The position numbers and the translations under genes are program-made. A model generated the notes under the pieces. It did not search any database. It had not been told where the DNA came from and saw nothing but the letters and a program-made list of their open reading frames with translations. This document shows positions 40,702-53,356 of a stretch of DNA of 64,000 nucleotides, piece by piece. Numbering within the stretch: the first letter of the stretch is position 1; each line of letters starts with the position of its first letter. Where the stretch lies: assembly GCF_033473495.1 (NCBI RefSeq), contig NC_088935.1:3100001-3164000 (forward strand), in the 5' to 3' direction. The stretch comes from Cercospora beticola (lineage: Eukaryota; Ascomycota; Dothideomycetes; Mycosphaerellales; Mycosphaerellaceae).

Positions 40702-42030
40702 TCACAGATGACTGTCTCTGCCAGTGCTGGAATTGACCTCAAGATCTCTCAACTCTCTCTTAGGCGCCGTACTCTCATGTGCTCCCTTCCACTTCACATT
40801 AGGATCCTTCCACGCCCAAGCACGATCCCTCTCCTCTCCATTACCCTTCCCACTCAGCACATTCGCCATATACTTGCCGATGATCGGCAAAAACTTATAA
40901 CTATGAAACGACCCTCCTGTAGCAAAGTAGAGATTCTTCAATCGAGCATCGGGATGTTGGCAAAGCAGCCAATCTTGAGTAGGGGTATAGGCGTCCCAGC
41001 ATAATCGCCAATAATCTGGTTCTTTCTGCGAGAACATTGGCATGACTTTGGTACTCATCTCCCTGATGGCTTCGCGTTTCAGGTTCTCTGGAACGATATG
41101 CTGGTCGCGTTCGGGTGGGACGGAGATTCTGTGACCAGAAGGTGTTTGGATGGTATTTTTGAATGTGTTGGAGTCTGTGTACTTGAGTAGACAGTTCTCT
41201 TTTGGGGGTGGAATGACTTCTCCGTTCTCACCGTATACCACAACGGGCATCTTGCTGAGTTGATTCATCTCCGATGGAGACATTTTGTAGTGAACCACTC
41301 CCACCCCTGCGGCACTGACTTGTCGTTCTACTCGCTGAGCTTCTGTGATATTAAGCTGGTCTTCGATTGGAGACATCAAGCTGCTAGTCCATGCACCGGT
41401 GGAGAGCACGATGGTGTCCGCAGTGAGGATGCGACCATCTTTTGTATGGACACCTTTCACACTGCAGTCGTCGTTTAAGATAATGTGGTCCACTGTGCCA
41501 ATACCATACTTCACGCCTTTCGAAATAGCCGCATTCATAATGCTCGCCGTCGCGGCAGAAGCATCACACCATCCTGCTTCAGGATTCCAATACGCCTTAG
41601 TGAATCCTCGCAAATCCGTGCCTTTCAGAATACCATTCCAGTGATCGTTGAGCTTTTCCAAGGCAATATCTTCAGTGGGATCATGCCCTCTTTCACGGAA
41701 TACACTTCGGATTCGGTCTGCCAAATCGCTTCCTTCCCGATCCAGCATGATCCAGCCTGTTTTATGATAGTAGTGCCGCAACTCTGGCCATTCTGCCCAA
41801 GCCTTCATGGCCTCGTAGGCGAGATTTGCGTAGAAAGCGCTGCTGTAATCGGCACGAATAATCTTGTTGATATCGGTGCTTGCTGCCGGGTCTGGCGATG
41901 GCGGGGTCTGATCGATGACAGTGATATTGGAAGCATCTTTGTATTGGGAAGCTAGGTGATATGCTGTCGAAGCACCGAATACGCCAGTTCCAACGATGAG
42001 AATCGTCTTTTCTTCTTGTAAGACAGCCAT
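40702..42030 (-). CDS. FAD-dependent oxidoreductase, fructosyl-amino-acid oxidase/sarcosine oxidase type
   Basis: A single open frame of 442 residues. The N-terminal Rossmann motif is VGTGVFGAS (13-21), with Asp40 closing the second strand (NITVIDQ). The DAO-superfamily middle and the C-terminal segment (CWDAYTPTQDWLL, LYFATGGSFHSYKFLPIIGKY) match amadoriases and related oxidases that act on glycated or N-methyl amino acids with O2, releasing H2O2. The Cys in RLCWDAY is a candidate for covalent FAD attachment, as known for this group. No peroxisomal C-terminal tripeptide is evident (ends DSHL, SKL-like only loosely). Convergent with the kinase-like gene, 117 bp apart. Confidence 0.85.
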   Translation of the reverse strand: MAVLQEEKTILIVGTGVFGASTAYHLASQYKDASNITVIDQTPPSPDPAASTDINKIIRADYSSAFYANLAYEAMKAWAEWPELRHYYHKTGWIMLDREGSDLADRIRSVFRERGHDPTEDIALEKLNDHWNGILKGTDLRGFTKAYWNPEAGWCDASAATASIMNAAISKGVKYGIGTVDHIILNDDCSVKGVHTKDGRILTADTIVLSTGAWTSSLMSPIEDQLNITEAQRVERQVSAAGVGVVHYKMSPSEMNQLSKMPVVVYGENGEVIPPPKENCLLKYTDSNTFKNTIQTPSGHRISVPPERDQHIVPENLKREAIREMSTKVMPMFSQKEPDYWRLCWDAYTPTQDWLLCQHPDARLKNLYFATGGSFHSYKFLPIIGKYMANVLSGKGNGEERDRAWAWKDPNVKWKGAHESTAPKRELRDLEVNSSTGRDSHL

Positions 42031-42385
42031 AGCGGATGCAAGTGAGTATCGAAACTGTATAATAATTTAGTAATAGGCAGAAGCTCTAGCTTGTAGTATC
42101 TCAGAAAGCTTCACCAGGAAGCCGCGACTCCTGCAGCTACCTTGATTTTGGCATGGAAACAAGCCGGCCAACTCAAAACAAATACGCAAAGTCTTGGATT
42201 CGCGATATGAACAGCCTGCAGGTTCACAGTACAGGTGGAGAAGTGTATAGCGCGGAGCGGGCCGAAAGCCACGTGCACGAAAAATTACTTCACATACTTC
42301 ATCTCCTGCACTTCAAACTCGATTTTTAGCACCTTACGAGGTCCAAAAACGATCGCAATTAGAGCCATTTGAAGCAAAAAGAAAG
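42031..42385. other. upstream region of the FAD oxidoreductase gene
   Basis: 355 bp between the oxidoreductase start and the tRNA. Nothing specific is seen apart from the tRNA terminator. Confidence 0.4.
42376..42380 (-). terminator. Pol III terminator of tRNA-Asp
   Basis: A TTTTT run on the minus strand begins 6 nt after the discriminator base of the tRNA gene. Confidence 0.7.
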
Positions 42386-42489
42386 CTCTCCATCAGGGAA
42401 TCGAACCCTGGTCTCCCGCGCTTGTGGCAGGCGTCCTAAGATGCCTTTTTGCTGACAAGCGGAAATCATGACCACTAGACCAATGAAGA
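42386..42489 (-). tRNA. tRNA-Asp (anticodon GTC) with a 32-nt intron
   Basis: The seven acceptor pairs form between TCTTCAT at the 5' end and ATGGAGA at the 3' end, with one G-T wobble, then discriminator G. The D-arm has AGTGGTCA. The anticodon stem TCCGC pairs with GCGGG. The anticodon loop TTGTCA-C carries GTC at 42456..42454. The intron 42452..42421 sits after position 37, the canonical site. The T-arm is CAGGG-TTCGATT-CCCTG. Mature length is 72 nt before CCA. The B-box GGTTCGATTCC is perfect. Confidence 0.93.
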
Positions 42490-43218
42490 GAATATTGAGC
42501 TATTTCTATGCAATCTTTGGATTCTACTGCACTATATACCTCATTCGTTGGCCTGGGGTAGCAGCCACGCAAGAGAGCTGCTTCCATAGGCTCAGGGTGA
42601 CTTGGAAATCTTCGTGCTATGGTACAGAAGTGTTTCGTGCAGATGAACGAGTGCACAAACAATTTCGAGGCACTAAAAGTAGTCTGATTGCTATGAGAAG
42701 GCCACGAGAAAGGGCGGCCTGAGATCCTCGTCAGTCGCTGTCAGAGGATTGATTCAGTTTTGGTACGGCACTGCTACCGATGGCTCAAGAGAGTGATTTG
42801 CAGTAAATTCCTTTACGGAGACAGTACATTGTGATGGCAATTCGTGTATTCGATTTCCGTTGTTGTCTGCGCTTACCCACGACCAGCTGATGTGACGCTG
42901 GATTGTCATGTCGCGTTGCGCTGAAATCGCAGATATTTAGGAATTCGAGGATGTTGTTGCCTTTGTAACATTTGCTGCCGAAGCGCCTGCCATAGCACTC
43001 CAGGCGCGCATCAAAGTGTGCATTGCACTGAATCTGCTTCGACCTCAGCTGTCACTTCAGCCCGCGTACTTGAATCGCGATGCCATGAAAATTCTCCTCA
43101 CAAGTACGACACTGTACTCCAGGCTGAGGGATGATGACTCTACAGACCTTGCTGTGAGCCATACTACAAGCAATCCCAAGAGTGGTCCATGTCATTGTTC
43201 CTCACACCCACACAGGGC
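42490..43218. other. intergenic region between the tRNA and the regulator gene
   Basis: About 730 bp downstream of the regulator stop. No gene or RNA is recognised. Confidence 0.4.
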
Positions 43219-45707
43219 TCAACCACCCACGCCATATCCGCCGGCTGACCATCGATAGGTCGTAATAATCTGCTGCTGTAGATCCAAATCCACTTGCGAA
43301 ACCTCTTTTGACCCCTTGGCCACAGCCAAACTCATCAGCAGCAACCGCCGCATTTTGCGCTATAGGACACGAACTGCATGCCAGAAGAAGAAATATTTGC
43401 CATTTGCGGGGAAGAACAATAAGAAAAGTTCGAAATCCATTGACAAGATTCACATACCTGGTGTTCGATCCGAGAAGTTGACACACTCGACTCTAGTGCT
43501 CGAACAAAGATTTCTCCCGCGTGTACCAGTTCCGCTGGAGAAGAGCGACTGAAGCTTGCGAGCATGACGTGAACAATGCTGGCGCTGAGGAAGAGAAAGA
43601 TGTCGCAGAATAAATGGTTCATATTGAGATCGGGGTCGATAGTCAATACCTCTTGGAGCGATTGGGATATGGCGTGAATGTTTTTGAGATGAGCAGACTG
43701 CGTATTGGCCCGGGCAGGGGCGTTTAAACGTCCCACTGTACAGCCCTGGAGCGCAAGAGCCATGTCCCAGGACATTCCGTCGAGGACGAGTGGAACGCGG
43801 CACAGGAATTTGCGATATGCCGTCCAAGGCTGTTTGCGCTCTGTTTGATGAGAGCTTTGGTTGTTGATAGAATGGTCGAAAGCTTCTGAGAATTTTGCGA
43901 GTGCTTGACGTTTAGGGTGAGCACAACGGAGCTGGAAGAAGTCGAGTTGGGCTGGGTCCGTTCGCAGTGCAGCTCGATGTTGATCAATCATGAGCTCCAG
44001 TACCCCACTGAATGGCACAAGAAAGTTGAAGATGTCCGAAAGTCGCCTGTCTTCGTCCCGTGCTTGGTGGTGCGCGGCAGCATATCTATCGGATTGCCAC
44101 ATCTCCTCAGCAATGGGGATCATGGTTTCGCGGCAGTCCAGTTCAGTCAACACCACTGGGGCGTTGTGGGCGAGAGCGACTTGCTTATCCCAGACGAAGA
44201 GAGTCCACCAGATCCGCCTTCGCTCTTCCATCTCCTCTGGGGACGCGTTTAGAAAGCGATAGTCTTTCCTATCGACTACAATGGCTCCTTCAATGTCGAG
44301 TGTCGGATCCTCCTCGCCGGCCGGCTGACTGCGCGGACCATCGTAGGGGCTATCACATTGTCCTGAAGCACTTGAGGTGGGACATCTTGAACGGCCAGTC
44401 GCAGTGGTAGTCGCGCCCTGGTGGCGGCATGCTATGTCTGCATTTAGTCGATACTCTTTGGCGAGTTGAAATGCCGTGCGCCACCAAATCGACGCGAAAG
44501 ACCCAACTTCAGTCACCATCGAAGCAAGTGCCAAGTGGAGGTAAGTAGCGACCTCATCCACAAAGCGACGTCTGCCATATTGTCGCGGAGAAGCGCTATC
44601 TCCAGGACTAGCCTGCTGTGTTGCTCCACTGGAGCCTGGGGAACGAGACAGGTTGATCGTGGTGGTGAGCAAACGATCCAGGAGCCGCGCTCGCGCCGTG
44701 GGCGAAGCGCCGAAGAAGGGAGCTTCAGTCGTGACTGCAGCGACTAGCAACATGCTGCAAAGTAACGCCGGAGTGCACGATCGTGGTTCCGCGTGCGTAA
44801 GGAACACTGATTTGCGAAAGACATGGGTGAGGAGGATTGGCGATGCCGGAACGTGAGGCTGTTCAGGATGGTCTTTGAAGTATGCGTCCAGCAAGTCGCA
44901 AGCAAGGTTGGAAGAGATGTGAGGTCGGAGATGAGGAATGACAGGTGCCAAGACTGGATATCTCAGGCTCGACGAGGATGCAGAAATAGTAGCGTGGTCG
45001 GCATTGTTCGACACATACGATAAATTCGAGGAGTGAACATCTAGGCACTGTAGATGCGCGTCCGGCATGTCCGGCTCTGTCACTTGCCCACCAGAGTGGC
45101 TCCAATTACCATCCATGGTTCCCCAGGGCTCAGCAGCCCAGGCATCCATCAGCCATTCCGGCATGCCGATAAAAGGAGTGGTACAGTCCATGCCACTGAG
45201 TCGCTGACATGGTTCCTGCGTGGAGAAATTGGCCTGATGTGGTGTCGAGTTGCCTTCCGTCCCGGGTTGGTAGCCATTTGAAAGATCATAGTCAGTACCA
45301 CTTGTACGGACCAGCGCTGCCTGAGCCTCTGCTGGGAAGCATTGGGGTAATATCAGACCGACGGCTGTTCGCCGTGGTCTTCCTCGGCGACCACTCTGAC
45401 GCTCGTAGGTACAATCCGCCGACAATTCTTTGCATCAACCACACGGTTGTGCAGCATCACATCGGGCACGAGATGCGTTGCACCTGTCGCACGCCTTTCG
45501 AGCCCGGCGTCGTGTGGTCGCGCCAACGGCCCCTGCGGGTGGAGCCGGTGGTGGTTGGCCAGCGTCGCCGTTTGAGCTGTACTGCGGATCCTCCTCAGTG
45601 TTCTCCATGTCCAAATCCGGGGCCGCTGCACGTGGCAGTGCTGAGTAACGATATCGAGGATGGGGGACATGAAAACAATTATTAGGCACGTTTGGTCCCA
45701 GCACCAT
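43219..45707 (-). pseudogene. Zn2Cys6 sugar-regulator gene (XlnR/AraR/InuR-like) with in-frame TGA in the DNA-binding motif
   Basis: Exons 45707..43458 and 43359..43219 (98-nt intron, GTATGT...CTATAG) would encode about 795 codons. The second exon supplies the typical C-terminal end (TTYRWSAGGYGVGG). The Zn2Cys6 cluster has exact spacing C-x2-C-x6-C-x5-C-x2-C-x6-C only if the TGA at 45437..45435 (codon 91) counts as a residue. The expected residue there is usually Arg, so CGA to TGA is the simplest change. The rest of the frame is open and carries the fungal regulatory middle region (RRRIWWTLFVWDKQ). Start alternatives are ATG 45707 and ATG 45608. It lies divergent to GH36, 269 bp apart. UGA readthrough or a sequencing error are the alternatives to inactivation. 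Confidence 0.78.
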
Positions 45708-45834
45708 GCCGATCACAAATGCGGGGGACTCTGTACCAAAGTTTGCTGTTCACGTGCAAGAAGGGTCCCGGACACGACTGTCGTTCGCGTACAGAACGGG
45801 ATTTAAAGCTGCTCTGTCGTTGGTCAAACAGACG

Positions 45835-45842
45835 CGGATCCG
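45835..45842. promoter_or_regulatory. CGGATCCG palindrome in the regulator/GH36 promoter
   Basis: Inverted CGG half-sites, of the kind bound by Zn2Cys6 dimers, lie about 135 bp before the GH36 ATG and next to a TATTTAAT TATA-like box (45845..45852). An 8-bp match can occur by chance; the position in a shared 269-bp promoter is the main support. Confidence 0.35.
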
Positions 45843-45976
45843 GCTATTTAATCACAACAGCAGCTACTGAACCAAGTGGACACCACGTATAGCTGCAAGA
45901 ACGCAGATCACGATGGCGTCCAATAAAAGCCAGGCGCGGAGGTCATCTTGGTGGAGGACGAAATTGTCGATTCAGA

Positions 45977-48126
45977 ATGGGTTCCATCAACGAGAGCTGC
46001 GAGGAAGTGAAGTCCTTCAGCTGGGGGACAAAAGATCTTGTAGTCGAATTTATCCTCAACGATAATGGCGCACCATGCATCGAGCAGGTGCACTCTCCAG
46101 GAGCACCGCACACTCGCAACGTCTCGCCATATTTTGCCTCGGCGAGTGTTCCTCTGAACGCGATACGGATCAACGGCCGTGGCCACAGTGCGGCGAAGAC
46201 CTCGAAGTCTTTAGTGGGCGGAGTGTTGTCGAGTCGATTGATGTATCGGGGTCATTCCCAGCGATCTACGCCCAAATCTGATTGTCTGGACATCGTGTCA
46301 AAAGACGATTTGACCGGCATCGAGGCAGTCCATACTCTGGAGATCTTCCGCGGTGTGCCTGTGCTTCGGAGTTACACGACCGTTCGAAACACGTCTGAGA
46401 AGGCGGTGATCGTCAAGCAGGCGTCGTCACTTGCCATCGGTGGTTTGACACGCGGGGATCCAAACTGGCACCGGAATTACTCGGTGTGGGAAGCCAACAA
46501 CACTTGGTTTCGTGAAGCGCAGTGGCAGCAACGATCGCTCAGTGATGTTGGCATTGATGATATCGGGCTCTTGCAGTTGGACCAAGGACATCGAGCCACG
46601 ATGGCTCGCTATGGAATATCGAATCGTGGTTCTTTTTCTGCGGAAGGGCATTTGCCCATGGGCGGTATTTCGCACGAAGATGGGTCGGACAGCTGGCTTC
46701 GGCAAATTGAGCACAACGGGTCATGGCGATGGGAGATTGGCAAGACGGCCTGTACCTCGCCGCAGGTGGACCGAACTCATTCGACCACGACTGGGAGGTG
46801 GCGCTGGCTGCCAATGAAGCATTCACGTCGGTTCCTGTTGCCCTCTGCCACGTTGCTGGCCCTTTCACGGACGCGTTCGGCGTGCTGAACGACTACCGTC
46901 GCTGTCTCTTGCGCCCGCACGTCGATCGGGCAGAGCTGCCGGTCATCTTCAATGATTACATGAACTGTCTCATGGGCGATCCGACCGAGGCGAAGGTTGC
47001 CGCGCTCATCGAACCCGCTGCTCGTTCCGGCGCCAAGTACTTTGTCATCGACGCCGGCTGGTACGCGGACGACCAGGACTGGTGGGAGGACGTGGGCGCG
47101 TGGCGGCCGTCGTCCAAGCGGTTTCCCTCGGGGTTTGCCAGTCTGATGCACAAGATCAAAGCGCGGGGCCTTGTGCCGGGGGTGTGGCTGGAGCCGGAGG
47201 TGATTGGAATCCGCAGTCCCGTGGCGAAGCTGCTCCCAGAGCATGCATTTTTCCAGCTCAACGGCCACCGGCTGGAGGAACGTGGACGCTACCAGCTGGA
47301 CTTCTCGCAGGATGCAGTTCGCGAGCACATGGACGGGGTGGTAGATGGGCTGGTGGGCGAGTACGGCATCGGCTACTTCAAGTTCGACTACAACATCGAA
47401 GTCGTGAGCGGCAGCGATGCGGCGGGCAGTCCGGGGGCGGCACACCTCGCGCACCAGCGCGCCTACCTCGCATGGGTGGCGGGGTTGTGCCAGCGGCATC
47501 CCGCGCTGGTGGTGGAGAACTGCTCAAGCGGCGGCATGCGCATGGACTACGCGATGCTGGCGGTGCACACGCTGCAGTCAACCAGCGACCAGCAAGACGC
47601 GCTGCTCTACGCCGCCATCGCGGCCGCGTGCCCGACGGCGGTGGTGCCGGAGCAGAGCGCGTCGTGGGCGTACCCGCAGCCGCAGTGGAGCGACGAGACC
47701 AACGCCTTCACCGTCGTCAACGCCTTGCTCGGGCGCGTGCACCTGAGCGGCCGGCTGGACCTGCTCAGCGCGCGGCAGTCCGCACTGGTCGATGAGGGCC
47801 TGCGCGTCTACCGCGAGCACATTCGCGCGCACTTGTGCACGTCGCGGCCCTTCTGGCCCTTGGGACTGCCGCGGTGGCACGACGAATGGCTGGCGCTGGG
47901 GCTTAGTCTGGCGAACGGCAGTGCGGTGGTGGCCATCTGGCGCAGAGGAGGATCGACGAACACGCGCTTTCAACTGCCCCCGCCGCTCCGCCATCTGCGC
48001 GTGGCCACGCTGCTGTATCCCGCCGACTTCGAAGCACGTCTCGACGTGGATAGCGGGAGCGGGAGCGTCCGCGTGGAAGTGCCCGCTGTTCCGTGCGCAC
48101 GTGTCTTGAAGTTCTCCTCATCGTAG
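45977..48126 (+). pseudogene. GH36 alpha-galactosidase gene with a frameshift
   Basis: Two overlapping frames make one enzyme: 45977..about 46740 (N-terminal beta-sandwich, ending in the HNGSWRWEIG block) and about 46732..48126 (GDWQDGLYL, then the catalytic barrel). Together they give about 720 residues, the size of bacterial-type GH36. Catalytic residues are present: the nucleophile Asp in YFKFDYN (codon 47386..47388) and the acid/base Asp in STSDQQD (47587..47589). AGWYADDQDWWEDVG and VENCSSGGMRMDY are family hallmarks. No signal peptide, so intracellular. The frame slips by minus one at 46732..46741. Either one G was lost from a G-run or a 7-bp direct-repeat copy (GAGATTG-like) collapsed. 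There is no room for an intron. Confidence 0.85.
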
Positions 48127-48388
48127 GCTGCAAGTAGGGTACAGTACATATCACATCACCTTCGCAATGCAGTTCGTCTTCCGCAACTTCCGGTACATAT
48201 AGCTACCGCGTCTGAAAGTTCTGGGCCTGCAAGTGAGGTCAGGTGAGGTGAGGGCTTATAATCTAGCAGAGGCACTGAATTACACCTGAGGCAAACCCTC
48301 CACCGTCACTACCTCACTACAACTACCACAACTACTGCGAGTGGAACGAGCGACGCACGCGTCTGACTCGGGACGTCGCACGCCCCAA

Positions 48389-50163
48389 TCAGCTCTTATT
48401 GACCATCTCCACTCGAACCTCCGCTTCCTGTCCTTTCTCTTGCGTCTGCGCAGCGTTCAAATGATCCGTCATCAGGGTGTCGCCGAAGAGCTCATTGATT
48501 TCCTCCAGACTCTTTCCGGACGTCTCCGGCACCCAGAACCACACTGCAATGGCCGTCACCACGTTCATGACAATGAAAAATATGTAATATCTCCATCCGA
48601 CGTTGGCGAGTCCAGTAGGTGAAGCCTGAGCGAGGATGATCTGGATGATGAAGGACCAGAAAGTCGAGACTGCACCTCCTGCTGTCCGGATCTGGGTCGG
48701 GAAAATCTCAGTGCAGTATACCGGTGCTCCAGAATTCCAGCTGATGGAGAATATGATGCCGAACAGAAGGAGGAAGAAGATCCCGAACGCGTTTCCGATC
48801 TTGTTAGGCCCGCCACCAAACACTGCCACGAAAGCCATCACGATCGCAATGTCCACGGCCAAGCCCACCGAGCCCCATATGAGCATTGTCCTGCGCTTTA
48901 CGCGATCGATGATGAATGCGAGGCAGAACAAGTTCGACAGAGGGCCGATGATGCCCCATACACCAGCCAACGCCAGCACCGTCGCGCCTTGGATCCCGAG
49001 CGACTTGTACATGATGGTTTCGTAGTAGTTGATCGCCGAGATACGCAGATTTGCTGGCCAATCTGGATCCCACTCCCCAATAAGAGGCGCCTGCGATAGG
49101 ATGCTTTGCGGAATATGCCCATGAGGGACGAGACCTCATTCTCCTGCTCCCACGTAATTTGCTCGCGCATCTGGACGAACTCCCTCTTGACCATTTCCTC
49201 GTTGCCGGGTCGGCGCATTTTCTTGAGTACTGTGAAAGCTTCCTCGTGGCAACCCTTTTGGAGCAAATATCGCGGCGACTCGGGAAGGAAGAACGTTCCA
49301 CCCAGGAGTACGACTGCCCATAGGACTTGAAGGCCGACTGGGAAACGATACTAGGACGAATTAGGTCACGGCCTCCGCCTACGCATGCCTCACCAGGCTT
49401 ACCGTGAACTCGCCCTCGGCGTAATAGACTGCGAAACCTATCCAGTTCGATACCGCATAGCCAGTCCCGATGAACTGCGCATGCAAGCCAACAATACTTC
49501 CTCTGGATTTTACGGAAATGTTAGCTCATGGCGACAATTGCTTCCAGTGCAAGACTGCTCGCCCACTTACCGATGCTCTGGTGGCGCAAGCTCCGATTGA
49601 TATTGTGGGATGGCGAAGCAAACGATCCCGATGGCGAGACCGGCAATCAGACGTCCGGCGATGAGCATGCCGACCTCCTGAGCGCCCGTCTGGAGCGAGC
49701 ATCCAATAATCGCCACAATGGCACCAATTTGCAGTGTGCCTTTCCGGCCAGTCCAATTGCCAATTGGCCATGAAAGCAGACAACCTATGGCTCCGCCAGC
49801 TGTGTACTGTCGTAAAGCGAAACGTCAGTGCATCGAGCTTCACAAACTGACCCGAGAGTATCGGAACTCACTGTAGAGATGATGGCACCAAGCAGAGCAG
49901 CTGAAGGGTGAAAGAAGGTCTCAAAGTACTCCTGTGCTTGAGCCGTGCCAAAGATTCCTGTTCACACCCGATTAGACAATCATCTCCCCACAGCAGAAGC
50001 TGGCAATTTACCTGAATCATAGCCCCATAGAAGGGAGCCAATTCCCACAAATATGGCTAGAGAGCATCTCAGTCAGCATCAACGTCGGGCACGGCTTATC
50101 GACAAACATACCACAGAAGTAATTGTAGCCATTGGCGTAGTCAGAGATGATGCTTTTTCCCAT
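48389..50163 (-). pseudogene. MFS sugar transporter gene with a one-base loss
   Basis: Six exons: 50163..50112, 50056..50012, 49957..49872, 49806..49571, 49502..49403 and 49350..48389. Introns are 55, 54, 65, 68 and 52 nt, and the first five exons are phase-consistent from ATG 50163. Sugar-porter motifs are present: LLWGYDSGIFGT, GRLIAGLAIGIV, PESPRYLL, PETSGKSLEEI. In exon 6 the frame breaks at about 49045: QIGQQIC is followed by ISAINYY only after a shift equal to one missing G. Exon 6 is 962 nt where 963 would restore the frame to the stop at 48389. Intact length would be about 495 residues with 12 membrane helices. Its place beside GH36 suggests alpha-galactoside uptake. Confidence 0.85.
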
Positions 50164-51231
50164 GTCGGCCTCGGAATGAGCTTCGAAAGAGCTACACGTG
50201 TTCTAGCTGAAGCAGACCGCGGTGTGCATTCTCGTCATGGACTGGAGATCTTGAGCCAATGATAAATGCTTGCCCTTTGTGGTGGTGAAGGGCATCTATG
50301 GTGATTGAGCATGCGGCTCGTCCAATCACAACCCGCTAATGATAGCCTAATTCCCCGTGTTGTGCGCATCCTGCCATCTATCATTGTGGTAGACTAACTC
50401 AGGAGTCTGGGGCCCCGCAGAGGTCGCTTGGAAGGACCTTTCCAGCTGGACGAAAGTTATTATCCACAAGTCTACTCGATAGACCTCCACGACACGAGAT
50501 TCTCCACTCGAACGTTCGGGTTTCCCACGACTGTAAACGCCACGATTTCTATGTGGAAAGCAGCCTACTACTGGTATTCTTGATTGACTAATGCATGCTG
50601 TCGATCAACACCATTACAAGCATGCTGTCTCATTGGTTACACGATTTCCGCACAACGGCGTGAACTTTGAACTTGTAGCTGCAACATTTCCAATGTCGAT
50701 TCAAGGTTCGACATTCGCTTACTTTCCGCGAAAGCGTTGTCAGCAGACTACTTCTAAGACTTACTATATCGGATAATTGGAGATCAACCGCAAGAATCAA
50801 CGCTCCATGCTGCTCTTGGCGTCAGATGAAGGCCTTCCAAGACTGGGTCTTTCGAAGGACGTATTGTTAAGAGGAGCTTCCGCCAACTGGGTATTTTTCT
50901 ACCGACCTAGTAGTGACTTAGACTGACTGCGATACGAATTGGGCGTTGACTCCAACACGATGCAGATCTTCAACTTGAATGAAAAATTAGCCTACTGGAT
51001 CTGATGAATGCATCAGCTATGCCTCTAGCCGAGCTCCCAAGCACGAGTGCCGGCATTGTGCAACCCCATATCGAACTGCACGCCAATGCAATATTACTCC
51101 GCAGTCAAGAAGTCAGCACGTGGCTCTGGCATGGTCAAGAGAGATATTTAAGTACCCCATGGGGAGACCTACTGTGGCACAAATATCATTGATACCAGTA
51201 TTGGCAACTTCAACAGTCCTATCCGCCAGCC
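50164..51231. promoter_or_regulatory. divergent upstream region of transporter and beta-helix genes
   Basis: About 1.07 kb, AT-richer than the cluster. A TATTTAAG TATA-like box lies near 51143, about 90 bp before the beta-helix gene ATG. No gene seen. Confidence 0.4.
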
Positions 51232-53356
51232 ATGTGGACCTCCGGTACGCTCTCGACGTTGCTGTTGACTTGTGCGTTCTCCAAGCTGAGCGCCGCCGAC
51301 TTCTGGGTCTCGCCAAATGGGAACGATGCCAACGACGGGAGTGAAGCATCACCATTCGCAACGCTAGATGCCGCCCGGCAATCTGTCAGACGAGTCAATT
51401 CAAGCCTGCAGTCCGACTTGTTCGTGAACGTTCTGCCTGGAACTTATTATCTCGACAAACCTCTGACCTTCGAGGCTGCTGATTCTGGATCCAATGGTCG
51501 CCGCGTAGTCTGGCGCGCCACGGGCGATGGAGTGAACATTTCTGGCGGGTATGTACACGAAAGTGCAACAACATGGGAACTATGACTAACAAATCACTCG
51601 CAGAACTGCAGTCACAGCCTGGTCTGTTCATGACGCTGGCAAGAACATTTGGAAGGCCAGCGTACCACAAGGGTCCCGGTCTCGCCATTTGTACGTGAAT
51701 CAGAAGCATGCAACGCGAGCACGTCAACAACTTGCCCGATCTGATTTGAGGCTCACCTCGAACGGATTCGCAATCGCGAATCCTGATCGACAATACTTGG
51801 CCAGACTCCCGGGCATCGAAAAAGGCGAGCTTCGCAGTAGAGCTTCTTTCACTGATCGCTACATACCAATCGAGTCCGTCAATGGCAACGACCTCATCAT
51901 GGCTAATCCTGCGTTCAAAAACAACATTATCGGCTTTGACACGTTCACCGTACCTGCCCACGAGGGTGCACTCTGGCTTGCCAATGTGCTAGATCTTCTG
52001 GACGAGACGAATGAATACTTCTTGGATGAGGACGCGTCGGTCGTCTATTACAAGCCTGATGCTGCCGATATGTCGAACCAGAATGTGGTCCCACCTCGGC
52101 TGGAGTATCTCTTGGCCCTTGCTGGCACGTACGATGCTCCTGTCCATGACCTCACGTTCCAGGGTTTCAATTACATGCACACAACGTGGAGTATGTCATT
52201 CCTCTGAATACTTCTTCTTCTTTCCAACCAGCTAACAATGTACACGCAGACCAACCCTCTACCAATCTTGGCTATGTGGACCAACAGACTGGTGGATACA
52301 TTGGCAGAAACAAGGTCTACGACGTCTTCGAATCCTCAAGACCATTCTGGTACCAAGTCCCAGGCTCTATCCAGGCCAGCGCAGTGAAAGATGTCTCATT
52401 CCGTGGCGGCAGTCTCACTGCCATCATGGGCGGTTTCGGTATCGGCAATGATGCGAATGCTCATGCCTCACAAGTCGGTCTCGGAGCATCAAATGTTGAC
52501 ATTACTGGCATGCTCTTCAAACAAACCGGCGCCAACGCCATCACGGTTGGTGGTATTCAAGCCGATGCCCACCATCCCAGCGACCCAAGGATGACCGTAC
52601 AAGACATCACAATCACGGAGAACATTTTCACCGACGTGGCTTACACTTTCCAGTCCTGCGTGCCGATATTCGTCACGTATCTCACAGGAGCTAAAATCAC
52701 CTACAACGATATCTACGACGTTCCTTACTCTGGTATTTGCTACGGTTATGGATGGGGAGCCAATGACCAGGGTGGTAGCGATGAATACGAGAAACGGGGT
52801 CTCTACCAATACCAGCCCAGATATGACACGCCTACTACGCTGAAAGACGGGCTCATTTCCAACAACCTCATCCAGCGATTTGGAACGGTAATGACAGATC
52901 TGGGAGCATTCTACACCTTGGCAAAGAGCCCCGCAACGAGCGTGAGGAACAACTGTGTCGCTCAAAGTGTGGGATTCGGTAAGTGCAGTTCCCTCCACTT
53001 TTCTACAATTTCAGACACACTTGTAGCTGACCCAGATCCCAACAACAGCCGCCGTTTGCACCGATGAGGGTTCTCGTGACTACGTTGTCAAAGATAGTAC
53101 TTTTTTGACAGGCGGCTTTTGGCTGAATCGAAACGAAAGACCTGGTTATACGACTGGAAACCTCACTTTCACCAATCTTGCAGTCCAGGCCGATCCTCAG
53201 AATGGTTCGAACCAGTGGGGCGATACCGTTTCGAATGTTATTCAAGTTGACGACCAAAACAGTCTGCCCGATGAGTTCAAGGGCTACTGCATCAATGCTG
53301 GTATTCCGCAAGCTCAGCGTGGCAGTCGACCTGCTCATCGCGGCCCTTTCCAATAG
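51232..53356 (+). CDS. secreted right-handed parallel beta-helix protein, probably carbohydrate-active
   Basis: Four exons: 51232..51548, 51604..52190, 52250..52978 and 53049..53356 (introns 55, 59 and 70 nt), giving 646 residues. Residues 1-21 form a signal peptide (hydrophobic LSTLLLTCAF, cleavage near SA-ADF). The mature start, FWVSPNGNDANDGSEASPF, is the signature opening of pectate-lyase-like beta-helix proteins. Later repeats (NVDITGMLFKQTG, DITITENIFTDV, AKITYNDIYDV, GLISNNLIQRFG) are regular helix coils. The group includes glycoside hydrolases such as GH141-like enzymes, but I cannot assign a substrate. The last 15 residues, Arg/Pro-rich, look less conserved. Confidence 0.8.

Follow-up and report, generated by a model that had tools for sequence, protein, structure and literature searches.

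In a stretch of 64,000 nucleotides from the genome of the leaf-spot fungus Cercospora beticola (contig NC_088935.1, positions 3,100,001 to 3,164,000; hereafter the window), the segment 43219-50163 holds a putative alpha-galactoside utilisation cluster. A minus-strand zinc-cluster regulator, a plus-strand alpha-galactosidase of glycoside hydrolase family 36 (GH36) and a minus-strand sugar porter of the major facilitator superfamily (MFS) lie there in that order, and each is disabled by one separate lesion. We conclude that in the C. beticola lineage the cluster has probably turned into recent pseudogenes, having decayed as one sugar route, and that these are most likely fixed, or at any rate common, in the species.

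Three adjoining genes each carry one disabling lesion

Six of the eight cluster pieces searched contained Pfam families, namely Fungal_trans, both GH36 domains and Sugar_tr. The first regulator piece, which precedes the TGA, and the first porter piece (61 residues) gave no Pfam match. Together with the reading frames, these assignments bear out a preliminary description of the window in which regulator, GH36 and MFS genes had been proposed to adjoin, and the single defects that it had placed in them, at 45435, about 46735 and about 49045, were all confirmed in the frames (Table 1).

Table 1. Coordinates of the cluster genes, their lesions and associated features in the window
Feature	Position	Strand	Basis
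Regulator gene (XlnR/AraR-like zinc-cluster factor)	43219..45707	minus	PF04082, E 6.2e-10; splice and 3' end exactly as in C. beticola P0121
Zn2Cys6 motif of the regulator, interrupted by a stop	45387..45497	minus	PF00172, E 4.5e-8 with X at the stop
Lesion 1: in-frame TGA within the Zn2Cys6 motif	45435..45437	minus	relatives P0124-P0126 carry a sense codon there
GH36 alpha-galactosidase gene, single exon	45977..48126	plus	PF16875, E 3.2e-7 (first piece); PF02065, E 6.6e-37 (second piece)
Lesion 2: frameshift where the N-terminal domain ends, before the barrel	about 46731..46745	plus	P0001-P0003 open across the site
Sugar-porter MFS gene	48389..50163	minus	PF00083 over cut-off on three pieces; exon model by hand
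MFS exons	50163-50112, 50056-50012, 49957-49872, 49806-49571, 49502-49403, 49350-48389	minus	hand model; first 239 residues identical to P0136
Lesion 3: frameshift	49040..49050 (~49045)	minus	C. kikuchii P0135 open across the site
50-nt GT-AG stretch omitted as an intron in C. beticola P0136, bypassing lesion 3	49104..49153	minus	window with this gap equals P0136 exactly

The regulator gene starts at the upstream Met at 45707 or at a second Met at 45608, has one intron (43457-43360) and ends with a stop codon at 43221-43219. The two regulator frames, 45749-45435 and 45434-43335, are one and the same frame with the TGA at 45437-45435 between them. When this codon is read as X, the PF00172 Zn_clus domain spans it (residues 85-121 of 163); an uninterrupted Zn2Cys6 motif was not found in the window regulator. 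Stop-codon read-through in fungi is associated with CTA after the stop; the triplet following this TGA is TGC. From the first Met after the TGA (45191) onwards, the spliced window regulator is identical, residue for residue, to the public C. beticola record P0121, which lacks the zinc motif, as the stop predicts. This identity fits an origin of the window in C. beticola or a close sibling species.

The GH36 gene begins with an ATG at 45977. Its N-terminal frame extends to 46888, and the catalytic frame (46711-48126) is a different one, so that the GH36 N-terminal and Melibiase domains both score over the cut-off but in two frames. Lesion 2 is a length change relative to related genes that is not a multiple of three, and the conserved coding switches frame there, at about 46735-46745. 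The second GH36 piece matches 13 distinct solved sequences, and its KFDYN and TSDQQD segments align with KWDMN and TSDDTD of 8k1a; we take the aligned aspartates to be the two GH36 catalytic aspartates. The protein begins MGSINESCEE, where no signal peptide was recognised by eye. Lesion 3 is likewise a length change relative to relatives that is not a multiple of three, and it falls at about residue 275 of the 493 residues of the porter.

If intact, the GH36 enzyme, whose function is assigned by family, would hydrolyse an alpha-galactoside inside the cell; the sugar porter would probably import this galactoside and the XlnR/AraR-like regulator would probably switch both genes on. With the lesions, the regulator gene could at most encode a protein that lacks the DNA-binding motif, the GH36 frame would be lost before the catalytic barrel and the porter frame about mid-protein. 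A plausible course of events is that the route no longer paid, or that one gene failed, whereupon selection on the other two would have ceased and each would have acquired a lesion of its own. We infer the substrate, the regulation, the order of loss and the loss of activity from the sequences.

Related fungi keep intact orthologues

The comparison with related species that the preliminary description had called for showed, among relatives, an open porter and a GH36 gene open across the lesion site. The porter of C. kikuchii (P0135) runs through 493 residues without a break and is 98% identical to the window, and the GH36 protein P0001, 95% identical, is open across lesion 2. In P0001, the sequence on record begins within the N-terminal domain, where the corresponding window codon is GTG; its gene may be broken upstream or may have been annotated too short. 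An intact regulator orthologue at lesion 1 was found in P0124-P0126, all from outside the genus Cercospora.

The genes also occur together in other fungi. Taking an equal longest-contig size, in bases, among the matches listed as the mark of a shared contig, GH36 and MFS matches share at least six contigs (2118696, 133344, 77361, 76961, 151415 and 5474 bases), two of which are from Periconia. The 77361-base contig carries a regulator match as well, and a 49411-base contig carries regulator and MFS matches. By this measure, the trio of regulator, GH36 enzyme and porter is apparently a conserved fungal set.

Among the 120 GH36 matches listed of 5,302 (weakest listed, 612 bits; names on about one quarter of the proteins), there was no record named C. 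beticola and none named C. kikuchii; by our estimate, near-identical fragments shorter than about 290 residues could be missed in this listing. The C. kikuchii locus tags, CKM354_000316100 for the porter and CKM354_000316300 for the regulator, leave space for one gene between them.

The porter frameshift is present in a second assembly

The public C. beticola records belong to a second assembly, whose longest contig measures 6,188,355 bases (P0121 on one contig, P0136 on two) compared with 5,491,689 bases for the window contig. In the porter record P0136, exon 6 is left at '...MREQIT' and coding resumes at 'ILSQAPLIGEWDPDWPANLRISAINYY', which is the out-of-frame reading of the window before lesion 3. 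With the gap 49153-49104 introduced, the window equals P0136 over all 476 residues, the out-of-frame stretch 'ILSQAPLIGEWDPDWPANLR' included. Since P0136 is reproduced exactly only with both the frameshift and the gap, the second assembly has the same frameshift. Lesions are thus found in more than one assembly, directly for the MFS gene (P0136) and indirectly for the regulator (P0121).

Because the window reproduces the public records exactly, with the porter frameshift in place and, for the regulator, starting at the first Met that follows the TGA, an error of the window assembly alone is an unlikely cause of the lesions, as the preliminary description had argued on other grounds. More generally, an assembly or consensus error that makes intact genes look broken might be suspected, as two of the three lesions are short insertions or deletions (indels), the usual error of long reads, and as three lesions in one 64-kb window are striking. 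The nine comparison frames from the window (5,851 codons; three of the nine without a Pfam match) were selected for being open, and their freedom from lesions therefore says little. However, P0136 comes from a different assembly and is exact only with the porter frameshift, P0121 of that assembly fits the regulator stop, and this regulator lesion is a stop codon rather than an indel. Moreover, the longest single-base run at either indel is 3 (46721-46755 and 49030-49060), and no tandem array was found at the indels. We regard such an error as very improbable.

The P0136 model itself raises the possibility that a new intron rescues the C. beticola transporter, given that the window minus the 50-nt GT-AG gap gives this record exactly. 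The implied junction, however, drops about 37 residues that are kept in C. kikuchii and puts in about 20 read in a different frame, the donor of 49153-49104 is not on a short list of common fungal donors, and such an intron would rescue neither the GH36 gene nor the regulator. A screen for single GT-AG introns of 40-200 nt, with a donor at most 200 nt from the lesion and the frame kept open, gave 26 candidates for the MFS gene, 21 for GH36 and 31 for the regulator, and only one of these 78 (48961-48891, in the MFS gene) has a donor from the short list. This candidate was rejected as a rescue of the MFS gene, as it begins past the lesion and would drop conserved residues and retain an out-of-frame stretch. 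The conserved sequence flanking each lesion is contiguous, without a gap, in the relatives compared. Rescue by a new intron therefore has very little probability in our estimation.

We give equally little credit to a reversible, strain-specific off state, which the preliminary description had offered beside pathway loss. The lesions are single ones in frames otherwise well kept, as such a state would have it, but at least the porter lesion is common to two assemblies, and the three genes carry three unlike changes. Nor is there a slippage-prone repeat array at any lesion: the region 43000-50500 has two short arrays, 48052-48067 and 48233-48253, neither of them at a lesion. Since a lesion is common to two assemblies and repeat arrays are missing from the lesions, a reversible switch is unsupported. 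Repeat-induced point mutation is not known to make indels, and two of the three lesions are indels.

The decay appears young relative to the species split

Compared to the sister sequences, the C-terminal GH36 piece differs at 1 of 183 conserved columns versus 19 of 281 variable ones, and the regulator at 2 of 73 conserved versus 35 of 544 other columns. Since the differences in both genes avoid conserved columns, GH36 and regulator would have stayed under constraint during most of the period that followed the split. For the porter (3 of 216 conserved versus 5 of 275 columns), there is no clear avoidance. In columns with at least 90% conservation among relatives, six changes lie on the C. beticola side versus none on the sister side; when the nearest relatives are used to assign direction, the count is 18 for C. 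beticola versus seven for the sister, with 47 of 72 unpolarised. This pattern hints at relaxed constraint on the C. beticola lineage. Taken together, one lesion per gene and the substitution pattern suggest that the decay of the cluster is young relative to the species split, and the earlier proposal of a fairly recent decay gains support from the three lesions, the match in the second assembly and the intact relatives.

Several observations weigh against this reading. The bias towards the C. beticola side is slight (uncorrected two-sided binomial, 0.03 and 0.04) and shifts with the alignment settings (two versus one regulator changes), and for the regulator a single relative served to polarise the changes. 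Nor does the window exceed the intact relatives where columns are 95% conserved: it deviates at 5 of 171 such columns in GH36 and at 8 of 188 in the MFS gene, and the 12 relatives compared for each gene deviate at 0-11 of 179-185 columns and at 1-10 of 189-195, respectively. The GH36 comparison uses P0001, a record that begins inside the N-terminal domain, and what the second assembly contributes on the GH36 lesion would be only the absence of a C. beticola record among the 120 matches listed. The second assembly may also come from a related, or even the same, isolate.

The regulator provides the remaining points of this kind. The C. kikuchii regulator P0122, to which the window regulator is 94% identical, starts at the same downstream Met as P0121, and both records lack PF00172; this is compatible with a lesion that predates the species split, so that the order of loss is not fixed. 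In addition, an alignment of P0121 with P0122 has 37 differences in 623 aligned positions and one single-residue gap, with neither a frameshift nor a stop, and in both species the long regulator frame has otherwise stayed intact, which agrees as well with a retained shorter protein as with recent decay. The Zn2Cys6 pattern is also missing from 6 of the 10 other relatives' regulator records (P0123-P0132), and a short regulator record alone therefore proves little. According to PMC8496228, gene prediction in C. kikuchii used BRAKER2/Augustus guided by OrthoDB hints; given that P0122 is such a prediction, the C. kikuchii regulator gene may plausibly share the stop.

Alternatively, the shortened regulator could be a working protein without the DNA-binding motif that C. 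beticola and C. kikuchii have both retained, for instance as a partner or brake of another zinc-cluster factor, and only the enzyme and the transporter would be dead, in C. beticola. The shared start of P0121 and P0122, their uninterrupted alignment, the avoidance of conserved columns and the hint-guided prediction of the C. kikuchii genes all favour this alternative; against it, a gene predictor can miss an N-terminal part, the zinc pattern is missing from most of the other relatives' records too, and the constraint may wholly predate the stop. We consider it rather unlikely, and are similarly doubtful of a fuller scenario in which the truncation of the regulator predates the split of C. beticola and C. 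kikuchii, the short protein without DNA-binding motif was selected as a factor in its own right, and the loss of the cluster was a second step after the regulator had changed its job. Decay of all three genes as one sugar route in the C. beticola lineage remains the reading that we prefer.

Remaining alpha-galactoside capacity of the genome

Other copies were sought in the whole genome (36.07 Mb, 10 contigs). A further GH36 gene is present on C9 as a 721-residue open frame, three loci with a GH27 domain, matched exon by exon, are on C3, C5 and C2, and there is a galactokinase-domain match. Among the porters elsewhere in the genome, the closest reach 35-38% identity over long stretches and 40-43% over shorter stretches. 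The loss of the pathway announced in the preliminary description is therefore too strong a term: one probable import-and-split route is lost, whereas the claim for the pathway as a whole was overstated, as the other GH36 gene, the three GH27 loci and the galactokinase-domain match remain. These GH36 and GH27 enzymes can probably still split alpha-galactosides, and what has been lost is probably one particular uptake-and-split route, not necessarily the use of alpha-galactosides. Two GH27 stretches have stop codons inside the matched frame, one with two TGA codons (C2:3506200-3506625) and one with a single TAG (C3:3946432-3946599); these stretches may contain introns or belong to further broken alpha-galactosidase genes.

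For sugar-beet pathology, one probable galactoside import route would be gone, and galactoside use is not thereby excluded. Two public C. beticola gene models have apparently been shaped by the lesions, the xlnR model without a zinc motif and the 'metabolite transport protein' spliced round the frameshift. The lesions also look young enough for the order of loss to be read from a few related species.

Neighbouring features

A tRNA match on the minus strand (42386-42489) lies between the cluster and an open gene for a FAD-dependent oxidoreductase (40702-42066); since it is 104 bases long, the tRNA gene probably contains an intron. Beyond the porter, three frames at 51235-53067, apparently joined by short introns, probably encode a secreted protein that looks beta-helix-like by eye. 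One GTATGT donor was recognised there by eye, and the third piece gave no Pfam match.

Comparison with known systems

The cluster regulator resembles the XlnR/AraR-type zinc-cluster activators in its Fungal_trans domain and its Zn2Cys6 type, and one of its relatives is named araR in its record, as P0121 is named xlnR. It differs from them as a paralogue with a broken motif. The nearest regulator elsewhere in the genome, a 1,033-residue frame on C5 that is 47% and 33% identical over two stretches, is likely XlnR itself. The public name xlnR on P0121 looks misplaced because this gene is the better candidate.

Periconia digitata (P0018 with P0138) and P. macrospinosa (P0022 with P0137) share with the window a GH36 gene and a sugar porter, there on contigs of equal size, with identities to the window of 59-60% and 74-76%. 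The Periconia records are full-length, whereas the window frames are broken.

We found no report of the cluster among the titles and abstract openings on Cercospora raffinose or melibiose and on fungal alpha-galactosidase pseudogenes, to which the search was confined. The GAL genes of Saccharomyces kudriavzevii, with which the cluster may best be compared, are not all neighbours. This GAL network has been inactivated as pseudogenes (Hittinger et al. 2004, 2010, cited in PMC3276118), and one strain keeps an intact GAL set, according to PMC3276118. The likeness is that several genes of one fungal sugar route are all pseudogenes. In C. beticola, too, there is a lesion in each gene, intact orthologues persist in relatives (for the regulator, only outside the genus) and lesions recur in more than one assembly. 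C. beticola differs from S. kudriavzevii in that its three genes adjoin and in that no intact C. beticola allele is among the few records compared. By analogy, the cluster would be a further example of coordinated pathway decay of the S. kudriavzevii GAL kind, and would add a clustered case from a filamentous fungus to the examples worked out so far in which a whole sugar route has decayed one gene at a time.

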